Positions 36,643-51,029 are shown, numbered from the stretch's first letter. The stretch: 51,029 bases of DNA from an uncultured bacterium (GCA_937862565.1 CALMFT010000037.1:1-51029), one strand, 5' to 3'. Program-made: numbers and translations. The notes: generated from the letters alone by a model not told the origin.

Positions 36643-36701
36643 AAATTTGCAGCTTAGATATTCTTTCTGAACTCTCTTATATTATTTATAAATTTGATTG
36701 T

Positions 36702-36774
36702 GGGTTTATAGCTCAGTTGGTAGAGCACAGGACTCTTAATCCTTTGGTCCAGGGTTCGAATCCCTGTAAACCCA
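36702..36774 (+). tRNA. tRNA-Lys (anticodon CUU)
   Basis: A 73-nt cloverleaf: acceptor GGGTTTA/TAAACCC with discriminator A, D-arm GCTC/GAGC, T-arm with GGTTCGAATCC. Anticodon CTT at 36735-36737 reads AAG. The 3' CCA is not encoded. One mismatch (C-T) is at the first anticodon-stem pair. It lies immediately upstream of the prophage integrase region. Confidence 0.95.
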
Positions 36775-36805
36775 ATTTAAATGAAATCAATGGTTATTAC
36801 ATAGA

Positions 36806-36857
36806 AATAACCCGCTCCCCAAGCCGTCTAAAGCGGTGCGGAGAGGGGTTATTTTTT
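36806..36857 (+). terminator. Terminator after tRNA-Lys
   Basis: AATAACCC (36806-36813) pairs with GGGTTATT (36846-36853), with a smaller inner hairpin (CCGTCTAAAGCGG), followed by T residues. Confidence 0.8.
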
Positions 36858-36937
36858 GTTTAGGGACTATACTAAAAAATCAGTACTCTGAATGAGCAGA
36901 TTGACCGCTTGGTAAAGCGAATTTCAGGCGGTGCGGA
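36833..36937 (+). repeat. GC-rich direct repeat GCGGTGCGGA at the element edge
   Basis: GCGGTGCGGA occurs at 36833-36842 and 36928-36937, 95 bp apart. A related inverted copy (CCCGCACC) is near 38646, upstream of the recombinase gene. It is unusual in such AT-rich DNA; it could mark an attachment site or an older insertion. Confidence 0.4.
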
Positions 36938-38549
36938 ACCCATTTTCCTTCTCATACAAAAGTTTATCCCCAAACAAAACATGTACCATTTGTTTTCTCA
37001 ATTCATTATTAGATAATTCCCGCACCTTTTTTGGTGAAAGATAGATAGCTTTTGCTTGAACCAAACACTCCTGTAGTTCTTGCTCTGACATAAACTCCTT
37101 TGATTTAATCTCCTCCTTAATTTTTTCTTTTTCAATACGCAATAATTCCCACTCTTTCTCCATATCTTCTATAAGATTCGTGTTTTCTGTTTTTACCATA
37201 ATTTGTCTGACGCTCGTTAATTGTTTTTCAATTTGCCCTAGAGCTTTTTTCTTATCAACAATCATTAATTCTTGGAATTCATATCTTTTTTTCCAAACAC
37301 GTTTGATTGTCTCTTCGAGCAGGTTCCAGGTATCTTCATTGATATCTAAGGTGCCTAGTAATTGATCAAATTGTGAGTGAATCGTATCTCTTGCAACTTG
37401 CCATCTATTCTTATCTTTCTTATTGGTGCAACCGTAATATGGATATTTTTGATTCCTTCATTGAGATCGGTATCCTGAGATTTTTGTCCCACAATGTCCG
37501 CAATGAATATAATCCTTCAATGGAAAATCAGGATTATCTTTCAGTTTAGTCTTGCCGATATATTTATCAGCAAATCTTCTGTTCATAATCTTTTTGACTG
37601 TTTCCATAGAAATCAAAGCCTCATGTTTTGCTGGAATAAGCTCGTTAATATCTCGTTTAGGATGATGAATAAATCCTGCATAAAAATACAGTCTGCTTTC
37701 TCAAAATAATGTCTCAACGATTGTTTTGTATAATACTCACTGGGTATTTTGAGTACTATTGCTTTTCATGCCTTTGTCTTTCATATACCTGAATACCGCT
37801 GATTCCGATTCTAAGATACCGTTGGCATACATTTCCAAGGCTTCTTTGACCAGTTGTCCTTTGGTAGGATGAATAACAACCATGCTGTTCTTGCCTTCTT
37901 TTTGTCTCATGTAGCCGATTGGTACCAAACCAAATGGTCGATGTCCATCATACAGTCTTGCTCTCATACCGTTCATTGCTTTTACTCTCGTGTTCCTTCT
38001 CTCGAATGCTGCGAAAGCATAGAGGATGTTTTCCTGGAGCATTCAGGCACTCGTGTTGTAATCTACGGGATACAGAGTGTATAAAATTTCACATCAGGCT
38101 TCTCTGATCATATTTGTCATCATCAGTGTTTCACCCATGTTGTCATTTCTTGAGATTCTTGAATTATCAACGCAAACAAAATGCGTGATAAACGGCATAG
38201 TACCGTCCTCAGAAATATTCTCAGCTTCATTTGCTGATCATTTACCGCTCGTTGTCTTACTTTTGTTTTTCAATGCTTTTTCTGTTCTTTTTCTTTGTTT
38301 ATCCAAAATATCCAATACTTCATCAAATCAATCTCTTTCAAAGGTTCCTCAGGATACTCATCCATCTTTGATAACCTTTGCAACGATGACATCGTTTCTC
38401 TCGCATCGTTCTTTACACATGGCTTCCTGTGTTTCGATTCAGAATCTTTCCTCTGCCTGACGTTTAGAACTCACACGACAGTAGATCAAAGCTACCTTTC
38501 TCACATCAGAACCAGCGTTCTTGTTTTGGAAGGGGTTTTTATTATACAT
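36867..38549 (-). CDS. Large serine recombinase (phage integrase)
   Basis: This 560-aa recombinase starts at ATG 38549 and ends at TAG 36867; the TGA at 36924 is glycine. The catalytic domain has V-A-L-I-Y-C-R-V-S-S-K-R-Q, with Ser27 the likely nucleophile, then G-V-S-G-G-T-F-E-R-D-G, and D-N-S-R-I-S-R-N near 165. A recombinase domain (G-H-R-P-F-G-L-V-P-I-G-Y) and a zinc ribbon (H-C-G-H-C-G, then Y-Y-G-C) follow, then a coiled-coil C-terminus. Around residues 75-125 the catalytic domain carries a Lys-rich insert. This architecture catalyses unidirectional attP x attB integration. It is transcribed toward the tRNA, away from the phage structural genes. Confidence 0.92.
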
Positions 38550-38576
38550 GGAATAATGAGCTTAAAGAAATAAAAA

Positions 38577-38632
38577 TCCTGTGTTATATAAAACCAGAAT
38601 TTGGTGTCGCATACCAAATAAGGATCACAGGA
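38577..38632. other. Two-tier dyad upstream of the recombinase gene
   Basis: TCCTGTG (38577-38583) and CACAGGA (38626-38632) frame an inner perfect stem ATTTGGT (38599-38605)/ACCAAAT (38613-38619) with loop GTCGCAT. The 56-bp element lies 28 nt upstream of the recombinase start. It could be an operator, an RNA leader structure, or a recombinase-binding site. Confidence 0.55.
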
Positions 38633-38699
38633 GGTATAGGGTTTCCCGCACCTTCCTTTTTTGATATAACTATTATTGCATCTTATTGCAAGTCAATTA

Positions 38700-38906
38700 C
38701 TAAGCTAGTTTTCAAGATATATACATTTCTACAAGATAGAGTCCTAAGTGTTCGGAAAACTCTGATAAATTCTGTATTTGTTCGTCAGAAAATTTCGTTC
38801 AAGTGGTTCAAAGAAGCACCTTTGCTTCCGAGAGTGAAACTAACAATTCCTTTCTAATATTCAGATTCTCTGAGGCAAATTTTTTTTTCCGTAAATGCGG
38901 ACGCAT
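38700..38906 (-). CDS. Hidden 68-aa protein, function unknown
   Basis: The frame runs from ATG 38906 to TAG 38700 only if three TGAs are read as Gly. It begins M-R-P-H-L-R-K-K-K and contains L-L-V-S-L-S-E-A-K-V-L-L-G and F-S-D-E-Q-I-Q-N-L-S-E-F, a plausible small helical protein. It lies upstream of the recombinase, same strand, where phage repressors or excision factors often sit. I recognise no family. Confidence 0.5.
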
Positions 38907-39234
38907 GAATTGGTGGAATGTTTTTCATTGCAGAGTGAATATAAAGTAAAAATCCTGACGTTAAATACAGGTATCAACAATATAATAAATTAAATTTGAG
39001 TTTCATTTTCTTTTTTATTTTTTTGCAATACATTAGTTATCATTACCATAATTCAGTTTTACTAAATTCATTATTATGGCTTTCTTATTGACACAACTGA
39101 ACTAAGCAGAGATCTGATAAAAATCTAGATTCAGATTATTAAAAAATCTCAATAAATGCGTTGTAAAATTATCAATAATATCTTATAATAAGCCGTATAT
39201 TAATACTTTATTTTATCTCATCTCATAATTTATA
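38907..39234. other. 328-nt spacer without a supported gene
   Basis: AT-rich region between the divergent 68-aa minus ORF and the 69-aa plus ORF, the likely place of the lysogeny control promoters. TTGACA at about 39087 lacks a convincing -10. A CATAAT lies 5 nt before ATG 39235, fitting leaderless starts. I see no reading frame here. Confidence 0.5.
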
Positions 39235-39444
39235 ATGACACCAGAGCTTCAAAAAAGAATCATCAAAATTTGTGATGAAAAAATAATTCAAAAAGGAGAT
39301 AACGTGGGACTGTCATTTTATGCATTTTTTGAAAATAAAAATACTGATCCTGATTTGCTTATGACTGTTGCGAAGTGGCGGATATTAGAAAATAAATTAG
39401 ATCACTTTGAAAAAGCAAAAAAAATAAAAGAGATGCTACAATAA
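39235..39444 (+). CDS. Small 69-aa early phage protein
   Basis: This is a short helical protein with no recognised domain: I-I-K-I-C-D-E-K-I, then S-F-Y-A-F-F-E-N-K, then M-T-V-A-K-W-R-I-L-E. A -10-like CATAAT precedes the ATG by 5 nt. It contains no TGA. Its position right of the control region suggests an early or regulatory gene. Confidence 0.55.
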   Translation: MTPELQKRIIKICDEKIIQKGDNVGLSFYAFFENKNTDPDLLMTVAKWRILENKLDHFEKAKKIKEMLQ

Positions 39445-39497
39445 AAAATCTTCATAAAAAGATTGAAAAACAATCCTAAACCACTATATATTTTTCA

Positions 39498-39585
39498 TAC
39501 AGAAAAAATAAGCGTTTGTGGAAACGTGCTTAGTAATCCTAATTAGGGTTATTTTGCCTCCTCAAACGCTTTTTTATTTTCTGTA
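39498..39585. ncRNA. Nested 88-nt dyad element, possible structured RNA or terminator
   Basis: The outer arms (39498-39518 and 39563-39585) are almost perfect 20-bp inverted copies, from TACAGAAA to AGCGTTTG. Inside lies a second dyad TAATCCT-AATT-AGGGTTA (39534-39551). The outer right arm contains TTTTTT after AACGC, so it can end transcription of the 69-aa gene, but its size and nesting exceed a normal terminator. Confidence 0.5.
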
Positions 39586-39589
39586 TTAT
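39584..39589 (+). promoter_or_regulatory. -10 box for leaderless start at 39596
   Basis: TATTAT lies 6 nt before ATG 39596, the same spacing as the other leaderless genes here. The -35 would fall inside the dyad's right arm and is not consensus. Confidence 0.5.
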
Positions 39590-39595
39590 ATACTT

Positions 39596-40030
39596 ATGCA
39601 AAAAAGATGAAGGAAGCCCTTGAGTGAATACACCACTCAATATAGAATTTATGCAGATGCTTTTCATCACTTACTCAGATATATTCACGAAAAAAATATA
39701 CATCAACTCTACACTAAAGGCAAGATTGCTTTTGGAATTCAAGAAAAAGATGTCCTACTTTCTTACAACATCAATGGAGTTCTCATTGAATCTAAACTTG
39801 CTATAGATCTGTGTGATCGTAGACATTGTGATGAACTTCATAGAGCGATTCAAGATTTCTTTATTGACACCTGGTATTTGTATGAACGAGATGGATCCAC
39901 CACCAAAAACCAAGATCTCGCCAGAATCCATGGAATCTCTCCACAAGCTATGAAAGTAACACTTCAGAATATTAAAGATAAGCTGAAACAACAAAGCCAT
40001 CTCCTGTGAGGTAACCCTAGAGACTCCTAA
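39596..40030 (+). CDS. Phage protein with C-terminal helix-turn-helix
   Basis: This is a 144-aa protein. The ATG at 39596 is joined to the rest by one TGA at codon 5 (M-Q-K-R-G-R-K-P-L); a TTG start at 39620 would be needed otherwise. The C-terminus has N-Q-D-L-A-R-I-H-G-I-S-P-Q-A-M-K-V-T-L, a clear sigma-region-4 or MarR-like HTH. It may be a late-gene activator or a DNA-binding early regulator. It stops at TAA 40028 after a second TGA. Confidence 0.6.
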
Positions 40031-40060
40031 TAGATTGAGAAAACCACAAAATGCATACAA

Positions 40061-40087
40061 ACGGGATAGCTTTTATCTCGTTTTTTT
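40061..40087 (+). terminator. Terminator before the methyltransferase gene
   Basis: ACGGGAT (40061-40067) pairs with ATCTCGT (40075-40081) with one G-U pair and a 7-nt loop, followed by six more T residues after the T closing the stem. Confidence 0.75.
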
Positions 40088-40093
40088 GATGAT

Positions 40094-41401
40094 ATGAAAA
40101 AGAAAACTACCACTGAAAATATAAACACTGAAAAAGAAAATCAAACCTCCGACCTAGGTCAGGATATTGCTTTTGATCAATGAAAGTATATGAACCTCTC
40201 TCCTGATCAGCTTATTCCTTATCAATTCAACAATAAGATTCATCCTGATGATCAGATTAATGCTATTATTAATAGTATTACTGAGTGCTGATTTAGATCT
40301 CCAATTCTTATCGATGAACACAATATCATTCTTGCAGGTCATGGTAGATGGATAGCAAGTATGAAGATGTGACTGACTCAAGTTCCAGTCCTCAAATTTA
40401 CAGATCTTACTGATACTCAAAAAAAGAAATACCGTATTTTGGATAACAAACTCGCTGAACTTGCTGACCGAGATATTGAAAACCTCAAGATTGAACTTGC
40501 TGAACTTAATGATCCTGAACTCAATGACCTCTTTGATGATCTTGATCTATGACTTGATAATCTCTTGGATGTGGATGAAGAACAAGAAAATCAAGCACCT
40601 GAGATTTCAGAAAAACCTCGAGTGCAACAATGAGATGTCTTTCAACTCTGAGACCATAGACTTGTAGTCTGAGATGCAACAAACCTGGAAACAGTGCAAC
40701 TCCTCATGGAAGATCAAAAAGCTAATCTGATTATTACCGATCCACCTTATAATGTAAACTATGAATGAAGTACGGGTATGAAAATCCAAAATGATGATAT
40801 GAGTAAGGATAGCTTCTACCAATTTCTCTATGATGCATTTACTAATATGTATATGGTTCAAGAAGATGGAGCAAGTGTCTATATTTTTCATGCAGATACT
40901 GAATGAGAAAATTTCAGAAAAGCATTCACAAGTGCTGGATTCAAATTAGCTCAATGTCTTATATGGGTAAAAAATGCACTCGTTATGGGAAGGCAAGACT
41001 ACCACTGGAAACATGAACCAATCTTATATGGTCGAAAACCAACAGCAGGACATAACTGGTATACTGATAGATCACAAACTACGGTATGGAATTTTGATAA
41101 ACCACTCAAAAATGATCTACATCCTACGATGAAACCGATTGATATTATTACCTATCCAATAACAAACTCTAGTAAGAAAGGAGACAGAGTTTTGGATCTT
41201 TTTGGTTGATCTTGAAGCACATTGATCGCTTGTGAAAAGACAAACAGAATCTGTTATACGATGGAATTAGATGAAAAATATGCACAAGTAATCGTGGAAA
41301 GATACTACGCTTATACTAAATGAGCAATACCAATTCAATGTCTTAATCGTGAGATTGATCTCAAACCATTGCTTACACTCAAAGAAGATAATCAGAAATA
41401 G
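40094..41401 (+). CDS. ParB-like domain fused to DNA methyltransferase
   Basis: This 435-aa protein starts at ATG 40094 and ends at TAG 41399. Residues ~35-115 are a ParB/Srx-like domain (L-S-P-D-Q-L-I-P-Y, then I-L-A-G-H-G-R-W-I-A-S). The C-terminal half is an N6-adenine/N4-cytosine methyltransferase: D-P-P-Y at 216-219 (catalytic) and, after a recognition region, V-L-D-L-F-G-G-S-G-S-T (SAM binding) around 366-376. This order is that of the beta group. Two of the three SAM-loop glycines are TGA. It methylates DNA, perhaps for packaging or anti-restriction; the target is unknown. No partner nuclease is adjacent. Confidence 0.88.
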
Positions 41402-41427
41402 ATTACCACTTCAATTTCTCAAAACAA

Positions 41428-41946
41428 ATGAAATACAATCGACCACAACTTAAGATATCATTCCTTCAGTGAGACTATCTCACCGTTTTTGATTTTTACA
41501 AAGAGCACCTGAAAGGCACTCAAAAGGCACCTGAAAAACAAGAAAATATAAAATCACTACAAAAAGAACCAAAGTCCCTGCCTGGGAACTGGAAACAAGC
41601 CACCAAATGACGAGCTGAAGAGAAACAAATTATGATGAAAAAACTGGAATATTTACTCGATGATGCCAAGAAGTGAATAGCTGATGAGATCAAGAAACAA
41701 ACAGAAGAACAGCTCGGTATTGATATCGCTGAACTCATCAAATCCAAAAAGGCACTCTTCATTCTGATTAATAAAAAAATAGTCCATCTCGCCAAACATA
41801 ATGCACAAGATATCCTCGCCAGGGAGATCGATATTTTACTCAGTATCGTCAAAAGAGAGTTAGGAGAACCAACAACACTCACCAAAAATCATAATATCAC
41901 CGAACAGGTATTTATTCCTTCAGAAGATGAGCTGGATGACGACTAA
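41428..41946 (+). CDS. Probable terminase small subunit
   Basis: This 172-aa protein starts at ATG 41428. It is highly charged, with helical stretches (K-K-L-E-Y-L-L-D-D-A-K-K-G-I-A-D-E-I) and an acidic tail (S-E-D-E-L-D-D-D). No motif proves the family. Position directly before, and 20-nt overlap with, the large terminase gene supports the small DNA-recognition subunit. Confidence 0.6.
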
Positions 41947-43444
41947 CAGTCCAAAGCTCCTCTCTAAATCCTGGCGTTTATCTCATCTGTATAATATTGT
42001 CGATAAGAATGCTCAAACCATTATTTTCAAAAGAAACCAAGCACAAGAAAAACTTAATGCCTATATGAGAGAACTCAAGGAACAATATGGCTATGTCAGA
42101 TTGATTATCTTGAAAGCTAGACAGCTTGGAGTAACTACCGATAGACTACTCGATGGTCTTGATGACTGTATTTTGAAAACCAATCAAAACATTGTGATCA
42201 CCGCTCATAATAGAGAAAAACAAAAAGAGATCTTCCAAAAAGTAAAATACTCCTATCAAAAAGTGCCAGAGGCTTTGAAAACAGATAAAGGTATACGATA
42301 TAAACCAAAGCCAAAATATGATAATGTGAATGAACTCTATTTTCCAAACAATAACTCCAAGATCCAAGTATCATTGGATAGTAGATCGGGAACACCAAGT
42401 AAACTGCATATCACAGAGCTTGCCTTCAGAACTGACGCAAGAGAAATGATGGCAGGAACTCTACCATCTATGCCAAAACAAAGTGATATCGTTATTGAAA
42501 CAACAGCTAATGGAGTAGGAAACTACTTCTATGAAATGCGATACAAATACTATGGAAGGGACGATTGAGAATTCAAAACCATTTTTATTGGTCGATGGTT
42601 CGCTGACGAATATAGAGTATCATTGCAACCAAAAGAAGTGATTAAACTACCAGCTGAACTTGCTCATCTTGACGCATTGGATCTTGATGATGAACAGAAA
42701 AAACGATACTTACAACAATATGATATCCTCGGCAGAGATGTATTTCAAGAATATCCATCAACACCCGAGGAGGCATTTCTGACAACTGGTGATACGGTGT
42801 TTTCATTGCAACTTGTGAAAAATCTCCCAATCATGCCATACAAAGAAGATGAGAAGATTGCAAAACTCAGAATCTATGCACCACCCAAAGACAACTGCTT
42901 ATATGGTATTGATACGGCAGAGTGATGAAAAGATGGTGATAATTCTTGTATCAAAGTCAGAGATCAAGACTTGAATCTGCTCGCTTGTTACTATGGAACG
43001 ATACCACCCGATATGTTGTGTGAGGTTATTGATAGACTGATAGAACTAGGTTATAAAGGTATTATTGGTATTGAAAGGAATAACACAGGACTGACTACGA
43101 TTACTAAAGCCAAAGATTATCATTGGTATTCAATGTTGTATGCTGAGAGAACGATTGATAAAATTTCTAATCAACCAACCAGGAAATATGGTCGACAAAC
43201 GAATACTAAAACAAGACCACTCATGATCAATGAATATGAGGAAGCGATCAGACGTGGCTTTATTACCCAGGTCGATGAAAGACTCAGAACCGAGATGTAT
43301 TCATTTATCTATAATGAAAAACATAAACCTGAGGCTCAGGAAGGAACCCATGATGATGCAATTATGGCAGATGCTATTTGTTATCAAATGAGAAAGGAAC
43401 TAGCGTATGATATGAGTCGAGCGTTGCAAAACGAATCAGAGTAA
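41927..43444 (+). CDS. Phage terminase large subunit
   Basis: This 505-aa packaging motor starts at ATG 41927 (ATG 41936 is an alternative). The ATPase part has L-K-A-R-Q-L-G-V-T-T at 62-71, a Walker A variant typical of terminases, and H-I-T-E-L-A as Walker B. The RNaseH-like nuclease has G-I-D-T-A-E-G-G-K-D-G-D around 328 (Asp329) and H-D-D-A-I-M-A-D-A near 475. Only two TGAs split it. It cuts and translocates phage DNA into the prohead through the portal encoded next. Confidence 0.93.
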
Positions 43445-43471
43445 ATCAATAACTCAATAGACTGATTTTTT

Positions 43472-43520
43472 ATGACAAAGAATATACATCATGTAATCTT
43501 TATGCACTGCACTTTGTCAT
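43472..43520. repeat. Inverted repeat abutting the portal start codon
   Basis: ATGACAAAG (43472-43480) and CTTTGTCAT (43512-43520) are perfect inverted copies; the second ends directly before the portal ATG at 43521. In RNA it would form a 9-bp stem next to the start codon, so it may tune translation or be an operator. Confidence 0.6.
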
Positions 43521-44969
43521 ATGCAACAATCAATCAACCTGGATCCTATGATAACGAATGAGATCAAACATAGATCTACTTTTCATAAAATCTACACCAA
43601 TCAAACGAGTCATTTTGTCTTGGGAACTTTCAAGGCACAGGTTTTCAATATTAAATCATACCTGAGTTCTAACAACACCAAAGATGAATACTTGTATCTA
43701 TCAGTGAATCTACTTTCACTCATGGCAAATACGACTGCTGACTATCTAATCGGCGATGGTATCCAAATTGATATCAACAACGAACAAGCTAAGGCAAAAC
43801 GAGATGAGATTGCTCATGATAATAATTTTGATGAACTGATTTATAATATCGCACTTAATGTATGAATCTATGGCTATGCAGTATTAAGAACCAGAAAAGG
43901 TGACAATGAAGAGATTATGATAGAAGAGATACCTTATGATTATTACTACCCACAAATTGAAGGATTATTCTTGGGAGAACAACCAAAAATCATCTACCTC
44001 ATCAGTCATATTAATGAAACATTAAACTCAACGATTCAATCCAAAGCAAAAATCCAAACCTACACGAAACTAGACAATGGATCACGATTGATCGAGTATG
44101 GATTGTATACAGTTACATTAGATGGATCAGCATATACGCTCGAACAAGAACTAGCAACCCCTGAAACTTTAGACTTTCTGAATATCTATCGTTTTGATAA
44201 CAAAAGAATAGGAGGCAAACACCTATGAATAAGTGACTATGGAGACGTCTTGGATTTACTGGAAGAAGTGAACGATAGATTCACGCAAATATCAGTCCAG
44301 TTCATCAAACATCTCAATAGTAAGATATCTCTTCCTGAGTGAGTATCTGCATTACTGCAAAACAAAGAAAAGAAAATACAAAACCTCGAAGTTTTTGTAC
44401 ATAGACAAGGAGAACAACCAGCTCAGTATATTGAAAACCATAATTCATTGATTCCTGAGGCTCAAAATTATGTGGATAAGATACTCAAACTGATCTGAGC
44501 CATTACTCAAATACCCATTTCATTCTTTGGATTTGAAGAGACTGGAGGAGCTGAAAAAGTAGAGGCACTGAGAATTAGACTCACGAGATTTTTGAAGAAG
44601 ATCCAAAGAAAACAAAGAATGATGGAGTTAATCCTGAGGAAACTTGTGAAGGAAACACTGACTTTTGCGGGGATAAATTGAGACTATACAGTAGATATCA
44701 AATTCTCAGATGCAATGCTCAAAGATCTGCAACAAAACACGCAGATGTATATTGATTTATACAATACCAGTCTTGTATCTCAAGAAACAGCAATCGGTCA
44801 GATCTTTAGTCGAGACGCTACCATGGTGCAACAAGAAGTAGACCGCATCAAACAAGAACAAGATGAGAAACAACAGAAACAAATTGAACTCAATAATTCT
44901 CAACAAAATATCAAACCATCTTTACCTTCTAAACCATCCAATGGCAATCATTGATCCAAACAAAAGTAA
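43521..44969 (+). CDS. Phage portal protein
   Basis: This 482-aa SPP1-gp6/DUF1073-like portal forms the dodecameric DNA gate. Supporting segments are N-T-T-A-D-Y-L-I-G-D-G, Y-G-Y-A-V-L-R-T, I-P-Y-D-Y-Y-Y-P and, near the C-terminus, Q-I-P-I-S-F-F-G-F-E-E-T-G-G-A-E-K-V-E-A, typical of portals. After the TGA at 44952 it continues G-S-K-Q-K to TAA 44967. The following gene overlaps its last 29 nt. Confidence 0.85.
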
Positions 44970-45120
44970 TCAAGAACTCAGAGAGGTTTTGATCTTATTG
45001 CTACTGACCAACAATAAGGAATTTCGAGTAAAATTGCTCAGAATTCTATGATTCGTATTGATCGTATTATTTACCGTTATTACTGTTTGCATATTGCCTC
45101 GAGTGATATTTTTGAAATAA
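44941..45120 (+). CDS. Small phage membrane protein
   Basis: This 59-aa protein starts at ATG 44941, overlapping the portal 3' end. A charged N-terminal half is followed by one hydrophobic helix from about residue 36 (G-F-V-L-I-V-L-F-T-V-I-T-V-C-I-L). It could be a holin-like or head-associated membrane protein, but that is not established. The Gly at the start of the helix is TGA. Confidence 0.55.
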
Positions 45121-45207
45121 GAAATAATCAGATAACATCATCAATAGATTTACTTTTCTAAATCCTCGTTATTATCCCATCATATTTTTATCCTTCCTTT
45201 ATTATCC

Positions 45208-45828
45208 ATGCCAGACGATATAACAAACCCCAACGGAACAGGTGCCGATACAACCTGAACCCCAGCTCCTGCAAGTGACACTCCGCCTGCATGAACTGAT
45301 AAAAAACCTGATCCAAAGAGTGATGCAGATTTTGTTCCTTCACGAAGATTGAAGGAAGAGGCTGACAAACGTAGAGAGCTTGAAAACAAAGTCAAAGAGT
45401 TTGAAGCGAAGGATGCTGACAGAGAAAAGAAGAACCTGGAAAAACAAGGAAAATATAAAGAGCTTCTTGATGATGCTAATAAGCAGATTGAAACCCTCAC
45501 GAGTCAGACACAGGTTATCACAGAATATGATACTGCGATGACAACTGTGGTGGAGAGTGAACTCAATATCATCAAGATAACACTTGGTGATGAGAAGTTT
45601 ATGAAACTCTCTAATCTACTAAATCTTGAGAATCTCACTCCTTTACAAAAACTCCAGACCCTTCCAAAACTCAAAGAACTCATGGGAGAATTTGCAGAGA
45701 AAAAACCCGACCCCAAATGAGGTCATAGCATTCCTCAGCACGATACTAACACCTATGATAAAGCTAAAAGCGTCTGAGACTTCAATGGACTATTGAGTTC
45801 CATCATAAGCTCTGCGATTAAGAAGTAA
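45208..45828 (+). CDS. Capsid scaffolding protein
   Basis: This 206-aa protein starts at ATG 45208. A Pro/Asp/Thr-rich start precedes a coiled coil (R-R-L-K-E-E-A-D-K-R-R-E-L-E) and a helical C-terminus (L-T-P-L-Q-K-L-Q-T-L-P-K-L). Composition and position just before the major capsid gene fit phage GP20-type scaffolds. Five TGAs; after the one at 45718 the frame continues to TAA 45826. Confidence 0.75.
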
Positions 45829-45871
45829 TTTGATCAATGTATGTACTCTTTATCTTTTTTTACTCACACTT

Positions 45872-47038
45872 ATGTATCAATCATTTGATTTATCACTTAT
45901 TAGTGAAAGACAGGTATACGACCTGTTTTCTACTTTTTTGAAAGAGCAATCTTCTGCTTTGGAGATTTTCTTGAGAAATGGTCAGAACTATACCGCTGGT
46001 ACAAATAACAAGTACGAATGGCTTGAATCACAACTAACACCGATGTCATGGTCGGTTAATACCTATACGACACCAAGTCCTGGGTCTCCATTTTGATTAA
46101 CATTTACATCTACCGCAGGTATGAGACCTAATATGATTCTTAGGTTTGTACGAGCGGGTACCAATGATGATGTAGGTGATATGCAAGTTAAGGTTCAAGA
46201 AATAGTATCTCCTGATACAGCAGTCTGTATTTTATATGGAGATACGATGCCATATCCATTGGATCCATCAATGACTGCAAAACTTATGTCCGAAGCGGTA
46301 CAAGAAAACGAGAAAAATATCGTTTGAGTTGATGAATGGCAACCAGTCAATGAATACAATCACTTCCAAATCTTTAGAAATGCTGTCGAATTGTCTGACA
46401 CTGCATTGAACTCAGCGATCTATGGTAATGTAAATACATTGTCTGAACAGCTCAAAGGAGCGTTCTATAAAATTAGACAACAAATGTCTGAGCAGTCATT
46501 GAGATGACGTAGAGTCGCAAGAACACAGGGAGAAAATGGAACATTCTGAGGTATGTTTCAGTATCTTGATGTGTCATGAGGTAATGTGATTGATGCAGGT
46601 TGAAATCAACTAGACCCAACTATTATCAATAATCTAGTTCAACTGATCGTAGAAGATGGCGGAGTAGCAAATACGCTTGTTTGTAATATTAATCAAGCGA
46701 GAAAAATCTCATGATTTAATGTTTCTTGAAATAACCCAATTATTACTCAAGACTCAACTCAAGCTGGTAGTTATGTATTGAGATTTATTTCTGATATTCC
46801 AGTTGCTGGAGGTATCGTTTCAAATATCTTATTAGATGAGAAAATGCCAAACAACACTGTAGAATTGATTGATATTAATCGTATTGCATTAGTTCCATAT
46901 GCAAATAGATGATTGAAACTTGTACCAGGAACACAACCATGACAAGATGGTCAGACTGCTATCTTGAGATGAGAATATACGATGGTTGTAAAAGACGGTA
47001 AATATTCTCATGGTACTATCAAAAATCTTAAATGGTAG
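45872..47038 (+). CDS. Major capsid protein (SU10-like HK97 fold)
   Basis: This 388-aa protein starts at ATG 45872 rather than the upstream in-frame TTG (45830) because M-Y-Q-S-F-D then begins it. The pattern N-K-Y-E-W-L-E-S-Q-L, L-K-G-A-F-Y-K-I-R-Q-Q-M, T-F-G-G-M-F-Q-Y-L, and N-I-N-Q-A-R-K-I-S matches SU10/DUF5309-type capsid proteins of HK97 fold. Over a dozen Gly are TGA. Ends TAG 47036. It follows the scaffold gene, as expected. Confidence 0.82.
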
Positions 47039-47074
47039 TCTATATTCTTCACTTTTATTTCCTCGTTAATTATT

Positions 47075-47440
47075 ATGGCTCCAACTAAACAACAAACAAC
47101 AAAACCTGCCGATATTGCACCTGCGGTAACCGCACAGACAGCGGTGGAAGCTGAAAATCAAACATCGCAAGATATATCTCAAACAACCGATGAACCAATA
47201 ATCAAAACATGATCCACTAAAAAACAAAAGATTGATACGGAGTGACTTATTCATTTCAAAAATTCTCGTAATGCAACATTGTCATTTATATGACCAGATG
47301 GTAAGTTATGTTCATTTACTAATGGTATTTTTGCTACAAATGATCCAGCGACGATTAAAAAACTTGAACTTACTCAAGACTTCAAGTTTGGCTTCATTAA
47401 GGAATTTGATCCTGAAAAACAAAACGAGAAATCGAAGTAA
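47075..47440 (+). CDS. Phage head protein, unknown (121 aa)
   Basis: The first half is disordered, rich in Thr/Gln/Ala (T-T-K-P-A-D-I-A-P-A-V-T). The second half looks like a small beta domain: L-I-H-F-K-N-S, L-S-F-I-G-P-D-G-K, F-T-N-G-I-F-A-T-N-D. It sits between capsid and connectors, where head decoration proteins are often encoded. Three TGAs. Confidence 0.55.
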
Positions 47441-47476
47441 TTATTGTCTCTTTTTTATTATTCTATCTTGTATCAT

Positions 47477-47689
47477 ATGCTTATTCGTATTACCAGGGAC
47501 TGCCAAGTAAACGATCAGTTTTATACTTCTTGAATGGAAGTAGATATTGATCCTATTTCTTTTCATGCAGATTGTATGGAGGAAGTTGAACAGGTCGATG
47601 CGTCTTATCTTACTGATTCTCAACCATCTGATGATGAAGATTTGGATGATGAGGATACACCACCAGTCCACAAAAAACAGCGTAAATAG
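47477..47689 (+). CDS. Small acidic phage protein (70 aa)
   Basis: ATG 47477 to TAG 47687. It opens I-R-I-T-R-D-C-Q-V and ends with an acidic stretch (D-D-E-D-L-D-D-E-D) and K-K-Q-R-K. One TGA. Many phages have a short gene at this place between head and connector; function unknown. Confidence 0.55.
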
Positions 47690-47716
47690 TCGTCTAATAG
47701 ATTCATTTTTTGAGAT

Positions 47717-47743
47717 GATGGGTATAGTACTCACCATCTTTTT
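47717..47743 (+). terminator. Weak hairpin with T-run
   Basis: GATGG (47717-47721) pairs with CCATC (47734-47738), followed by T residues. It lies in the spacer before the connector gene and may reduce downstream transcription. Confidence 0.35.
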
Positions 47744-47765
47744 GTTTATTTTTTTTGACCTATGT

Positions 47766-48185
47766 ATGAATCATAATATTACGACAAATTTTATTCAACA
47801 ACATACTTTGCTGACAAATCTTGCAACTGAGCCAGTCACAACAGTAGAGAAATATATCCTCAGAGCATTGTCACTGGTAGGAAGTTATATCAATGCTCAG
47901 CAGTTTTATGATGAAGGAACTGACGCATTCACTTTCCCTGAACCACTACAAAATGCAGTACTGTATATCGTGGAAGTCCTATATATCGATAAAGGTATGT
48001 TTGCAGGTGCAAATAGTATTCAATCTGAAAAGATCGGAGATTATGCCTACAGTAAAAAACAAGATACCAGAGTAATGCCACTAGATCTTCCTGCCAATAT
48101 CATCGCATTACTTGATCCTTATAGATCACGAGCAGGAAATATTGCCATCGATGTAGGATGATATGATAGAGAATATGAAATATAA
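47766..48185 (+). CDS. Head-tail connector (gp6/DNA-packaging type)
   Basis: This 139-aa mostly helical protein reads T-T-V-E-K-Y-I-L-R-A-L-S-L-V-G-S-Y-I-N-A, then F-P-E-P-L-Q-N-A-V-L-Y, then I-I-A-L-L-D-P-Y-R, resembling gp6-like connector proteins, in which L-x-P-Y-R is common. It ends at TAA 48183, which lies inside a perfect copy of the 13-mer palindrome. ATG 47766 is the first suitable start. Confidence 0.65.
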
Positions 48186-48214
48186 TCAGATTATTTTTTA
48201 TTTACTCACTACTC

Positions 48215-48547
48215 ATGTTTCATTCTTTACTCCGTCAATCAGCTGATATTTATCAACCAACTCCAACAAACAATGGAGGGATTCAAACTATCAATCGAAC
48301 ATTACTTTGATCTTTTCCTGCTAGACTCAGTAGCTATTCTAAACCATGACTTATTGATCTCACGAATAGTAAAATGAAACATATCCAAGTCAGAGAGTAT
48401 CTGCTCTTTTTGGATCAAACTACAGCTATAGAGAAGTGATATAAAGTAACTATTGAAAACATTGACTATGAAGTCATTGCAGTGGCAAGTATAGGGAATG
48501 CAAGTAGTGCTCATCATAAAGAGTGCGTTCTTCAATTACGACAATAA
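48215..48547 (+). CDS. Head closure / head-tail adaptor protein
   Basis: This 110-aa protein has T-I-N-R-T-L-L-G-S-F-P-A-R-L, then Y-L-L-F-L-D-Q-T-T-A-I-E-K-G-Y-K-V-T-I, then Y-E-V-I-A-V, consistent with the beta-barrel of SPP1 gp16-like head-closure proteins. Three TGAs. Assignment relies mainly on length and gene order. Confidence 0.55.
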
Positions 48548-48573
48548 ATCATCACTTTACATCAAAACTCACC

Positions 48574-49059
48574 ATGCAAACTCAGTTCTTGCTCAATACA
48601 GAAACCTATAATCAGATCATAGAAGCTGAAAAGCAAGCACTCAAAGATACCGCATGATTTGTTTATGAACTCCTAAAAGATCAAATCAAAGACAAGGCAT
48701 TTGATAGTGGGGAATATCTCAAGAGCTTATTTCTCAAAAGTATCGGCATTGGAGATATTATCCAAATTTGATCATCGACTCCACAAGCGGTGATCATGGA
48801 ATACGGAAGGAGACCTCTACAAAAAAGACCGCCACTGGATACGCTCATACCACGAGCAAATAGGAAAGGCATGATCAATGATACAGCAACCAAATACAAA
48901 GATCTGAACTCCAAAGATAAAAGCACCATCTACCTCCTTGCAAAAAGTATCGGTGCGAAATGAATCACTCCAAGAGCTATCTTCAGGACGGTCTACGATC
49001 AACACAAAGATCAAATTAATGATTTCTTTAGTTCCAAACTCAAACAATACTTATGATAA
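48574..49059 (+). CDS. Tail-completion protein, HK97 gp10-like
   Basis: This 161-aa protein is helical at the N-terminus, then S-G-E-Y-L-K-S-L-F, I-M-E-Y-G-R-R-P, and I-P-R-A-N-R-K-G. The E-Y-G and G-x-Y-x-x-S features occur in gp10-type neck proteins. It ends with a TGA-Gly followed by TAA 49057; the next gene starts inside this end (ATGATAA overlap). Confidence 0.6.
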
Positions 49060-49454
49060 ATCTCAAAAAAGCTATTGCTGACTCTATCATGACCAATCCA
49101 ATCATTTATGCTTTAGTCGGAGATCGTGTATATAGAAAAAGGAATGACAAAAATGCCAATCCACCTTTTATCGTATATGAATGCTCAGGCTTTGAAAACA
49201 AACTAGGAAAGTATCAAAACAATCACTGATATCAAGGAAACAAACTCGTTGTTGATATTGTCGGAGAATATATGTATGAAGATCAACTCGATGAAATAGC
49301 CGATGCATTGATTACTCAACGATGATGATTTGTCGGTGAGCTCACGAATACCTGGAGTGGAACCATAGCTTTTGAAGGTAGAGATGAAGGTTATGACCCA
49401 GTCACAGATTATAGCGTCGTGAGGCTGTTTTTCTTATTTAAACATGTGTATTAA
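49053..49454 (+). CDS. Tail terminator-like protein
   Basis: This 133-aa protein overlaps the previous gene by 7 nt. A-I-A-D-S-I-M-T-N-P-I-I-Y-A-L-V-G-D-R-V-Y, then P-P-F-I-V-Y-E, then V-D-I-V-G-E and a final D-Y-S-V-V-R-L-F-F-L-F fit the gpU/tail-terminator fold, where I-V-Y and a C-terminal strand recur. It runs convergently into the MFS gene, whose 3' end it overlaps by 17 nt. Confidence 0.6.
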
Positions 49455-50640
49455 TATTCAAATGAATAATTTTTTTTCATAAAATTATATTTACTACCAA
49501 TATAAATAGACCGAGTCCGACTAAAGCATATTGTGGGTCAAAAAACGAGAGAACTTGTTTCCCAAAGGTTGTGTATAATGCAAAAAGAGAGAATATTATG
49601 GAACGAGTTGTTGCTATTGCTTTCCCTTGGGTTTGCTCTACAAGTACATGATTCCATGCTGGTTGTCGCATTCACTCAAACATATTGAATGCAATAAGCA
49701 AAACTGACATTATAATCCAATCTTTGATAAACAAACCAATACAAATAAGTAATATACCCTGTGAAACTGTTGCAATTACCCAAGCAGTATTGTAACTGTA
49801 TTTTTCTCCTATTTTATATGTGTATTTATTAGCAATCATAATTGCTAATGTTCCAACGGTTGCTAATACTCAAGCCATCCATTCTGGCATACCATATTGT
49901 ACACGTAGTGGTAATGAGATAATAAAAATAAATGCTACATGGTTTGCTAGTGAGCGATATATAAGAAGTAACCTCAATGATGGATTTGACATTACATTCT
50001 TGATGGCAATTTTAGCAGTATCTATATTTTTTCTCAGAGACTCTTTCCGTCAAGTTAGTTTTTCGTATATATTGAGTTCACGAAGTTGTAATGTCAAAAT
50101 AACCAGTGCTAAAGCAGAAATTACATCTAGTCATGCAAGAATAGTATAACCATTATCTCCAAAGAATTTTAGTATGGCTGATGCAATGAGAGGAGTAATT
50201 AATCCAGCTAAACTTTCCATAGCCATAAGATGTCCTATTTTTTTCCCAAATGTAGATTCTTCTCATAAGATTCTGAGATTGTCTTCAAGAAAAGCTTGTC
50301 CTGTTCCACTCCAAAATGCAAAATAGAGTCCACTAAAAATAGATGCAATAATAAATCATATATAACTAGGTACTAAGAGTATGAGTAATGCTCCTATAAA
50401 ATTACAAACCACTGACGCAACAAGAGCTTTTTTCCTTCACGCTGTATCAGCCCATACAGAAGTAGGTAATTCAAATAACCATACAGCAAGAGTAGAGACA
50501 TTTGTAATAATTATAATCTGACCAAGCGATAAACCAGTATACTTATAGAATAAGGTAATTAATGGAATAAGAAAAACAACTCCCGAAAGAAAGTTAATTC
50601 GTGACTGAAGCAGGATATTTTTACGGGCGTATGTTATCAT
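49438..50640 (-). CDS. MFS transporter inserted in the phage tail module
   Basis: This 400-aa, roughly 12-helix Major Facilitator transporter starts at ATG 50640 and ends at TAA 49438; a TGA at 49477 is read as Gly near the end. The first helices carry S-G-V-V-F-L-I-P-L, W-L-F-E-L-P-T-S-V-W-A-D-T-A-G-R-K-K (the MFS motif A region D-x-x-G-R-K), and L-Y-F-A-F-W-S-G-T-G-Q-A-F. The substrate is unknown; drug or metabolite efflux is common. Lying in reverse between two tail genes and having its own promoter makes it a probable moron. Confidence 0.88.
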
Positions 50641-50678
50641 ATTCGAATTTTTATAAAAATCATTTTCCTTCTATTTTA

Positions 50679-50707
50679 ATTATAAGGATTTCAATAAATT
50701 AAGTCAA
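50679..50707 (-). promoter_or_regulatory. Own promoter of the MFS gene
   Basis: On the minus strand TTGACT (50707-50702), 17 bp, TATAAT (50684-50679), about 38 nt before ATG 50640. An AGAAGG followed by an out-of-frame ATG lies within the leader. Confidence 0.75.
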
Positions 50708-50823
50708 TAAATAGAGGCTATTAAAGGTGAAATCATACTTATCGGATTTTGATATCAATAGATTGATATTTCAAAAAGCTGACTATAACCTCAGTATTGT
50801 TTTATATTTTCACCATTGTTTCC

Positions 50824-51029
50824 ATGACACAACCTACCTGAATCGTCAATGATCAAAGACTTCTTGCTGGAGCGTGAGAGTTTTACTACTGAACTTCGCT
50901 TGCATCATTAGTAAGACTTGGAGCATATAGAGATGCAACAATTGAATCCAAAAGAGAAAGTTCAGAACTTGTCTTTGATAATGCAAAAACAAATAAGTTC
51001 AAGAAAGGAACAGAATTCTCCTTCAAATT
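50824..51029 (+). CDS. Probable phage tail-tube protein (3' partial)
   Basis: The frame opens at ATG 50824 and leaves the window; 68 codons are visible. G-A-G-E-F-Y-Y-G-T, then L-G-A-Y-R-D-A-T-I-E-S-K-R-E, then N-K-F-K-K-G-T-E-F look like a tail-tube subunit (the T-E-F-S-F region recurs in them). Position after the tail terminator agrees. Three TGAs within the first 35 codons. Confidence in the family is moderate. Confidence 0.55.

Follow-up and report, generated by a model that had tools for sequence, protein, structure and literature searches.

Prophages that read UGA as glycine are an already known kind of element in this phylum: all prophages detected in Gracilibacteria and Absconditabacteria were in genetic code 25, and they are likely exclusive to that code (Liu et al. 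2023, PMC10746230). The reading of CGA and CGG as tryptophan has been published as part of the Absconditabacteria host code (PMC8629427). Here, a prophage from an uncultured bacterium is described, which lies at the right end of contig C37 (GCA_937862565.1, CALMFT010000037.1); the complete contig of 51,029 bases is the stretch analysed, hereafter the window, and belongs to a 46-contig, 1.27 Mb genome (G000) that is 93% complete. The host is an Absconditabacteria (SR1) bacterium, since relatives in the same family include the SR1 bacterium RAAC1_SR1_1 (CP006913.1). We are highly confident that the element is an intact, inducible-looking temperate prophage of the siphovirus type (Caudoviricetes), written in the code of its host, in which UGA is Gly and CGA/CGG are Trp, with a host range that would be limited by that code. 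Additionally, we lean towards regarding its lineage as the first viral one shown to have in common with bacteria not only a reassigned stop codon but also a reassigned sense codon (CGA/CGG, Arg to Trp), which would lock it to Absconditabacteria and exclude it even from UGA=Gly bacteria reading CGA as arginine.

Phage DNA spans from position 36,776 to the contig end at 51029, which is the left third of the prophage. An earlier note, made from the sequence alone, had placed a prophage at 36858-51029, and this proved right: the phage begins at the 3' end of a tRNA-Lys gene (36776), the stop codon of its integrase is at 36867, and it runs to 51029. The same note held that nearly every phage gene, including recombinase, methyltransferase, terminase, portal and major capsid, needs TGA, which was borne out by in-frame TGA in 16 of the 17 open reading frames (ORFs) from 36.8 kb on, all structural ORFs included. 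ORFs of 150 codons or more made up a fraction of 0.12 of the prophage with three stop codons versus 0.81 with TGA as sense, with control values of 0.17-0.21 when TAG or TAA was freed instead and 0.007 in base-shuffled DNA. For a conserved-column test, the phage proteins were compared with standard-code homologues of the methyltransferase, the large terminase subunit (TerL), HsdM, HsdS and HsdR, with the tested codons masked; TGA fell on glycine in 25 of 28 conserved columns. The TGA share of glycine codons is 35% in the phage versus 15% in the host genes of the window, many of which are ribosomal. These observations support a temperate phage whose dependence on UGA=Gly is complete; the code given in the earlier note stands to that extent, by coding density and by columns, and is not the whole code, as CGA/CGG=Trp had been missed.

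The extension towards the right attachment site that had been suggested for this prophage leads to two further contigs of the same genome, C42 and C25, and to a putative right junction, giving a whole prophage of ~44.5 kb. The tail-tube protein cut by the end of the window picks up ~12 residues later on C42, which also encodes the tape measure (phrog_12798), and the start of C25 overlaps the end of C42 by 33 bases with one mismatch. The genes on C25 include a DUF4143 ATPase, Dit (phrog_33 and PF22768), further tail proteins, an endolysin and type I restriction-modification genes, as well as HigB-like, M78/HTH, PD-(D/E)XK exonuclease, RecT and DnaD-like replication loader genes. The long-tail set (tube, tape measure and Dit) is thus present together with TerL, portal, HK97-type capsid and the connector set. 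Since the head, connector and tail modules are all intact, no structural gene is broken or frameshifted, and the ratio of nonsynonymous to synonymous substitution rates is ~0.04-0.2 for most genes (G000 versus the RAAC1 and G006 orthologues, with many synonymous sites saturated), the prophage is regarded as intact and not as a remnant; the decay of structural genes named in the earlier note as a sign against its claim was not seen. A decayed remnant, or a head-gene cluster resembling a gene transfer agent, is very improbable: although the window alone ends before most tail genes and an MFS gene breaks the structural order, C42 and C25 encode the tape measure, Dit, a tail protein and endolysin as well as RecT, exonuclease and replication functions, no frameshifted structural gene is seen, most genes are under purifying selection, and the layout is shared with RAAC1_SR1_1 and others. 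The intact prophage is equipped with its replication loader, RecT and exonuclease in addition to head, tail and endolysin modules, and carries as cargo the MFS transporter, type I restriction-modification and toxin-antitoxin-like genes.

Among public genomes, the closest TerL relatives that were found are in three SR1-family genomes. The search of the terminase against viral databases, also proposed in the earlier note, returned 21 code-25 contigs from IMG/VR. The standard-code relatives of TerL are only 23-34% identical, so that no close standard-code relative, the other sign that could have spoken against confinement, was found. A dual-compatible or host-switching phage, of a lineage also infecting standard-code bacteria, is even less probable than a remnant. 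Code-11-compatible phages targeted by the spacers of recoded hosts have been reported by Liu et al. 2023, which lends this alternative some ground; against it stand the in-frame TGA in nearly all window ORFs (all structural ones among them), nearest standard-code TerL relatives of ~30% identity and the phage's apparent lack of decoding genes. The tRNA search gave none on C42, C25 or the phage part of C37 (C37 has tRNA-Lys only), and no phage-encoded release factor was found. With no tRNA in the prophage, the phage would therefore depend on host tRNAs.

Besides UGA=Gly, CGA and the rare CGG appear to encode tryptophan in phage and host. In the masked-column test against standard-code homologues, CGA of the G000 phage fell on Trp in 7 of 9 conserved columns, on Phe in 2 and on Arg in 0; the RAAC1 prophage had CGA on Trp in 5/5, and the controls placed TGG on Trp in 13/13 and CGT on Arg in 12/15. 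Codons 223, 260 and 423 of TerL are CGA in the G000 phage and TGG in most standard-code phages. When four related prophages were aligned, CGA stood opposite TGG or CGA, and almost never opposite AGA, AGG, CGT or CGC. CGG was too rare for scoring against standard-code proteins (no conserved column) and is found opposite TGG and CGA in relatives. CGA and CGG make up ~44% of the Trp codons of the phage versus 38% in host genes, and both recodings are found in the 21 IMG/VR contigs with related TerL, whose CGA exchange pattern matches that of the prophages.

The decoding genes of the host were assigned by the tRNA identity rules used in PMC8629427. The host UCA tRNA carries glycine identity (G1 C2 G3, U73), the UCG and CCG tRNAs are Trp-like (A1:U72, G73, no A20), and there is a separate GCG tRNA with A20 (Arg). 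No host match to RF2 was found above the family cut-off in this 93% complete genome, the single release-factor match being well below it. In the host ValS, the conserved CGA columns are Trp in 3/3 when compared with standard-code relatives of its class, a pattern kept in 12 other genomes of the family; PDB homologues of two other host proteins had been dropped from this test for having no clear CGA column, and ValS was taken instead. The tRNA, RF2 and ValS evidence agrees with the Absconditabacteria code published in PMC8629427. In the proposed mechanism, the phage genes would be translated by means of the host tRNA-Gly(UCA) and of the UCG and CCG tRNAs with their Trp identity, in a cell that apparently lacks RF2. 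Plain NCBI translation table 25 (UGA=Gly only), with CGA as arginine and the Trp/Arg alternations as tolerated substitutions, is the code assigned to this bacterial group and used for its phages in PMC10746230, and is the least credible alternative of all, as CGA pairs with TGG or CGA instead of with arginine codons, falls on invariant Trp columns and on no Arg column, and the UCG and CCG tRNAs lack the A20 that the Arg GCG tRNA has; CGA is Trp in phage and host, and not the arginine of that table.

The reading frames require UGA to be a sense codon, and CGA has to be Trp at the conserved Trp sites. A standard-code cell would end each structural protein prematurely and place Arg at ~44% of the Trp positions, and the productive host range would for this reason be limited to bacteria with the same code (UGA=Gly, with CGA/CGG=Trp). 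Nearly all proteins would be truncated in standard-code cells, and mis-built in UGA=Gly bacteria reading CGA as Arg. The earlier note's confinement to recoded bacteria is thus secured as to frames that need UGA as sense, while the confinement itself is what we infer from them.

Several points weigh against the interpretation of an intact prophage in a doubly recoded host. The decoding of Trp by the UCG and CCG tRNAs is predicted from sequence identity elements, and the comparison of the G000 phage with standard-code proteins gave only nine scorable conserved CGA columns. The G000 phage is in three contigs, putatively joined through the C42/C25 overlap with its one mismatch and across a ~12-codon gap between C37 and C42. 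The right attachment site (attR) was deduced from two genomes only, and prophage activity (excision, particles) is a prediction from gene content.

Also in this genome, the right end of contig C33 (L204 14792-16494) and contig C44 (L203) have clusters of 21 tRNA genes, one of which specifies a second UCA tRNA that has U73 and an encoded CCA. The clusters adjoin genes for polynucleotide kinase and a phage-type RNA-binding protein with in-frame TGA. These clusters possibly belong to a large phage or plasmid with its own UGA-decoding tRNA.

The features of the phage part of the window are as follows, with protein identities from Pfam and PHROGs profile matches and percentages of identity relative to related prophages.

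36701..36775, plus strand: tRNA-Lys(CTT), the bacterial attachment site, with its 3' end as the left attachment (attL) junction (ARAGORN/Rfam)
36776..36866, no strand: left end of the phage (P' arm); a hairpin resembling a terminator separates the tRNA from the integrase; conserved in 4 prophages at three different tRNA species
36867..38549, minus strand: serine-type integrase, 560 amino acids (aa), 11 TGA, 4 CGA, 1 CGG (PF00239, PF13408, phrog_95 7.7e-50; 61-66% to relatives)
38700..38906, minus strand: small phage ORF, 68 aa, 3 TGA (weak homologue in G006)
39235..39444, plus strand: DUF6500 protein, 69 aa (PF20110 1.9e-29)
39596..40030, plus strand: putative DNA-binding/sigma-like regulator (weak PHROG/Pfam matches; 68% to G006)
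40094..41401, plus strand: ParB-N and N6/N4 DNA methyltransferase, 12 TGA, 3 CGA (PF01555, phrog_498 1.6e-154; ~50% to standard-code phages)
41428..41946, plus strand: probable small terminase subunit (by position; 57-63% to relatives; no family match)
41927..43444, plus strand: TerL, 3 TGA, 6 CGA (terminase-type PHROGs)
43521..44969, plus strand: portal protein (SPP1-type), Trp codons 3/3 CGA (PF05133 4.7e-20, phrog_64)
45208..45828, plus strand: head scaffolding protein (phrog_1793/4708 weak; 71% to relatives)
45872..47038, plus strand: major capsid protein (SU10-type), 11 TGA (PF17236 SU10_MCP 6.8e-41, phrog_1328)
47075..47440, plus strand: small virion-module protein of unknown function (35% to G026)
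47766..48185, plus strand: head-tail adaptor (phrog_4931 4e-7)
48215..48547, plus strand: head closure/adaptor (phrog_615 7.4e-6)
48574..49059, plus strand: tail completion/neck protein (phrog_5 1.3e-4; 57% to G026)
49053..49454, plus strand: tail terminator (phrog_347 weak; 54% to G026)
49438..50640, minus strand: MFS transporter, cargo gene, 8 TGA (PF07690 1.1e-22, phrog_2034 3.3e-23; absent at the corresponding place in G026)
50824..51029, plus strand: tail tube protein, cut by the contig end (82% identical to the G026 protein over its residues 8-82; C42 resumes at residue 95)

The DUF6500 gene is the sole phage gene in the window without in-frame TGA and may be a recent acquisition. The MFS gene was considered as the right end of the phage and rejected on finding the tail-tube gene beyond it; because that gene comes after it, the transporter is cargo inside the phage. 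The cargo at module borders varies among related prophages: RAAC1 has DsbA/DsbD-like thiol proteins and a P-type ATPase (L012:12315-16411), G006 has two DsbA-like proteins (L014:14434-16555), and G000 has the MFS transporter.

Four prophages of the group start immediately where a tRNA gene ends (3' end), namely Lys(CTT), Lys(TTT) and, twice, Leu(CAA), and they share conserved sequence next to the tRNA despite the differing host sites. In genome G035 the tRNA-Leu site is empty and the genes that flank the RAAC1 prophage are close together, as compared with G026. A search for direct repeats of at least 11 bases as attachment sites gave nothing useful, and the junctions came from comparing relatives. 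The right junction is placed, conditionally, where two genomes have in common a AGTCCTGTT motif adjoining sequence that resembles a tRNA end. An alternative right junction at a shared motif, CGGTTCGAAATT in G026 and AGCGGTGCGG in G000, was rejected because the DNA from the tRNA to this motif stays conserved although the four host sites differ, and is hence phage DNA. The integrase has a resolvase catalytic domain and a C-terminal zinc-ribbon region, features of large serine integrases; the PF07508 recombinase domain was not detected in it by profile search, and a single-sequence integrase scan of viral contigs gave no match. It would insert the phage at the 3' end of the tRNA gene and leave the tRNA whole, the position being observed and the recombination deduced. 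This use of a tRNA 3' end by a serine-type integrase appears unusual, because it is tyrosine integrases that usually target such ends (e.g., PMC8092301). Contig C14 of G018 (the end of L053) stops shortly into the left end of the same prophage group at a tRNA-Leu(CAA), which suggests a further lysogen.

Other phage traces were found in the same family. Contig C7 of G000 (L018, 8.4 kb) has a second, different tailed-phage fragment with a TerL containing 15 in-frame TGA, a candidate for the small terminase, and a major head protein (phrog_1357). A partial TerL among host-like genes in G006 (contig C22, L017:2880-3806), 70-74% identical over ~175 residues, probably represents a decayed copy from this phage group. 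In L008 (G043:C55), a distant TerL-like match from the same recoded family has no in-frame TGA in the matched frame and is perhaps a phage gene that is code-neutral.

A change of genetic code is expected to bring much of its cost or benefit through viruses. Here, phage and host share the stop and sense reassignments, and host recoding brought no freedom from phages. The phage also allows the predicted CGA/CGG=Trp code to be tested independently. If table 25 is used for annotation, Arg would be placed at ~40% of the Trp positions in phages and hosts of this kind, with consequences for homology searches and structure prediction. The phage further yields a definite host-range prediction, namely that hosts need the UCG/CCG tRNAs of Trp type in addition to the UCA tRNA-Gly.

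The earlier note had stated that few such temperate phages are characterised, a novelty weakened by the code-25 prophages of Gracilibacteria and Absconditabacteria described in 2023 (PMC10746230). Like the present one, those are integrated tailed phages of UGA=Gly hosts with dense in-frame TGA and likely exclusive to the host code; they were read with table 25, and CGA or CGG (and their reading as Trp), tRNA attachment sites and this serine-integrase group are absent from the main text. The Absconditabacteria code (Shulgina & Eddy 2021, PMC8629427) is alike in having UGA=Gly with CGA and CGG=Trp, and is reported for host genes, with no treatment of viruses in the passages concerned; the only other paper found that links Absconditabacteria with CGA, CGG and tryptophan is a 2026 tRNA paper, in which no occurrence of the word 'phage' was listed. 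Because the main text of PMC10746230 is without CGA/CGG and the CGA/CGG=Trp literature concerns hosts, a phage co-adapted to a sense-codon reassignment appears unreported within the open-access literature excluding preprints. Standard-code Vibrio phages (e.g., 1F273_PE002) and Streptococcus Javan phages have homologous TerL (~30%) and methyltransferase (~53%); they differ in code, and their similarity is only mosaic, not that of close relatives. The closest viral contig, IMG/VR 3300037311_000445 (metagenomic, 27.7 kb), has a TerL at 82%, an integrase at 63% and both recodings. The same layout is partially present in genomes G006 and G013, and is complete in the 45.2 kb prophage of RAAC1_SR1_1, which has the same gene order, with TerL at 79-81%, portal at 77% and capsid at 78%; unlike that of G000, it is at tRNA-Leu(CAA) and carries DsbA/DsbD-like, P-type ATPase, Eco57I-type restriction-modification and Fic genes, where G000 has the MFS transporter and type I restriction-modification instead.

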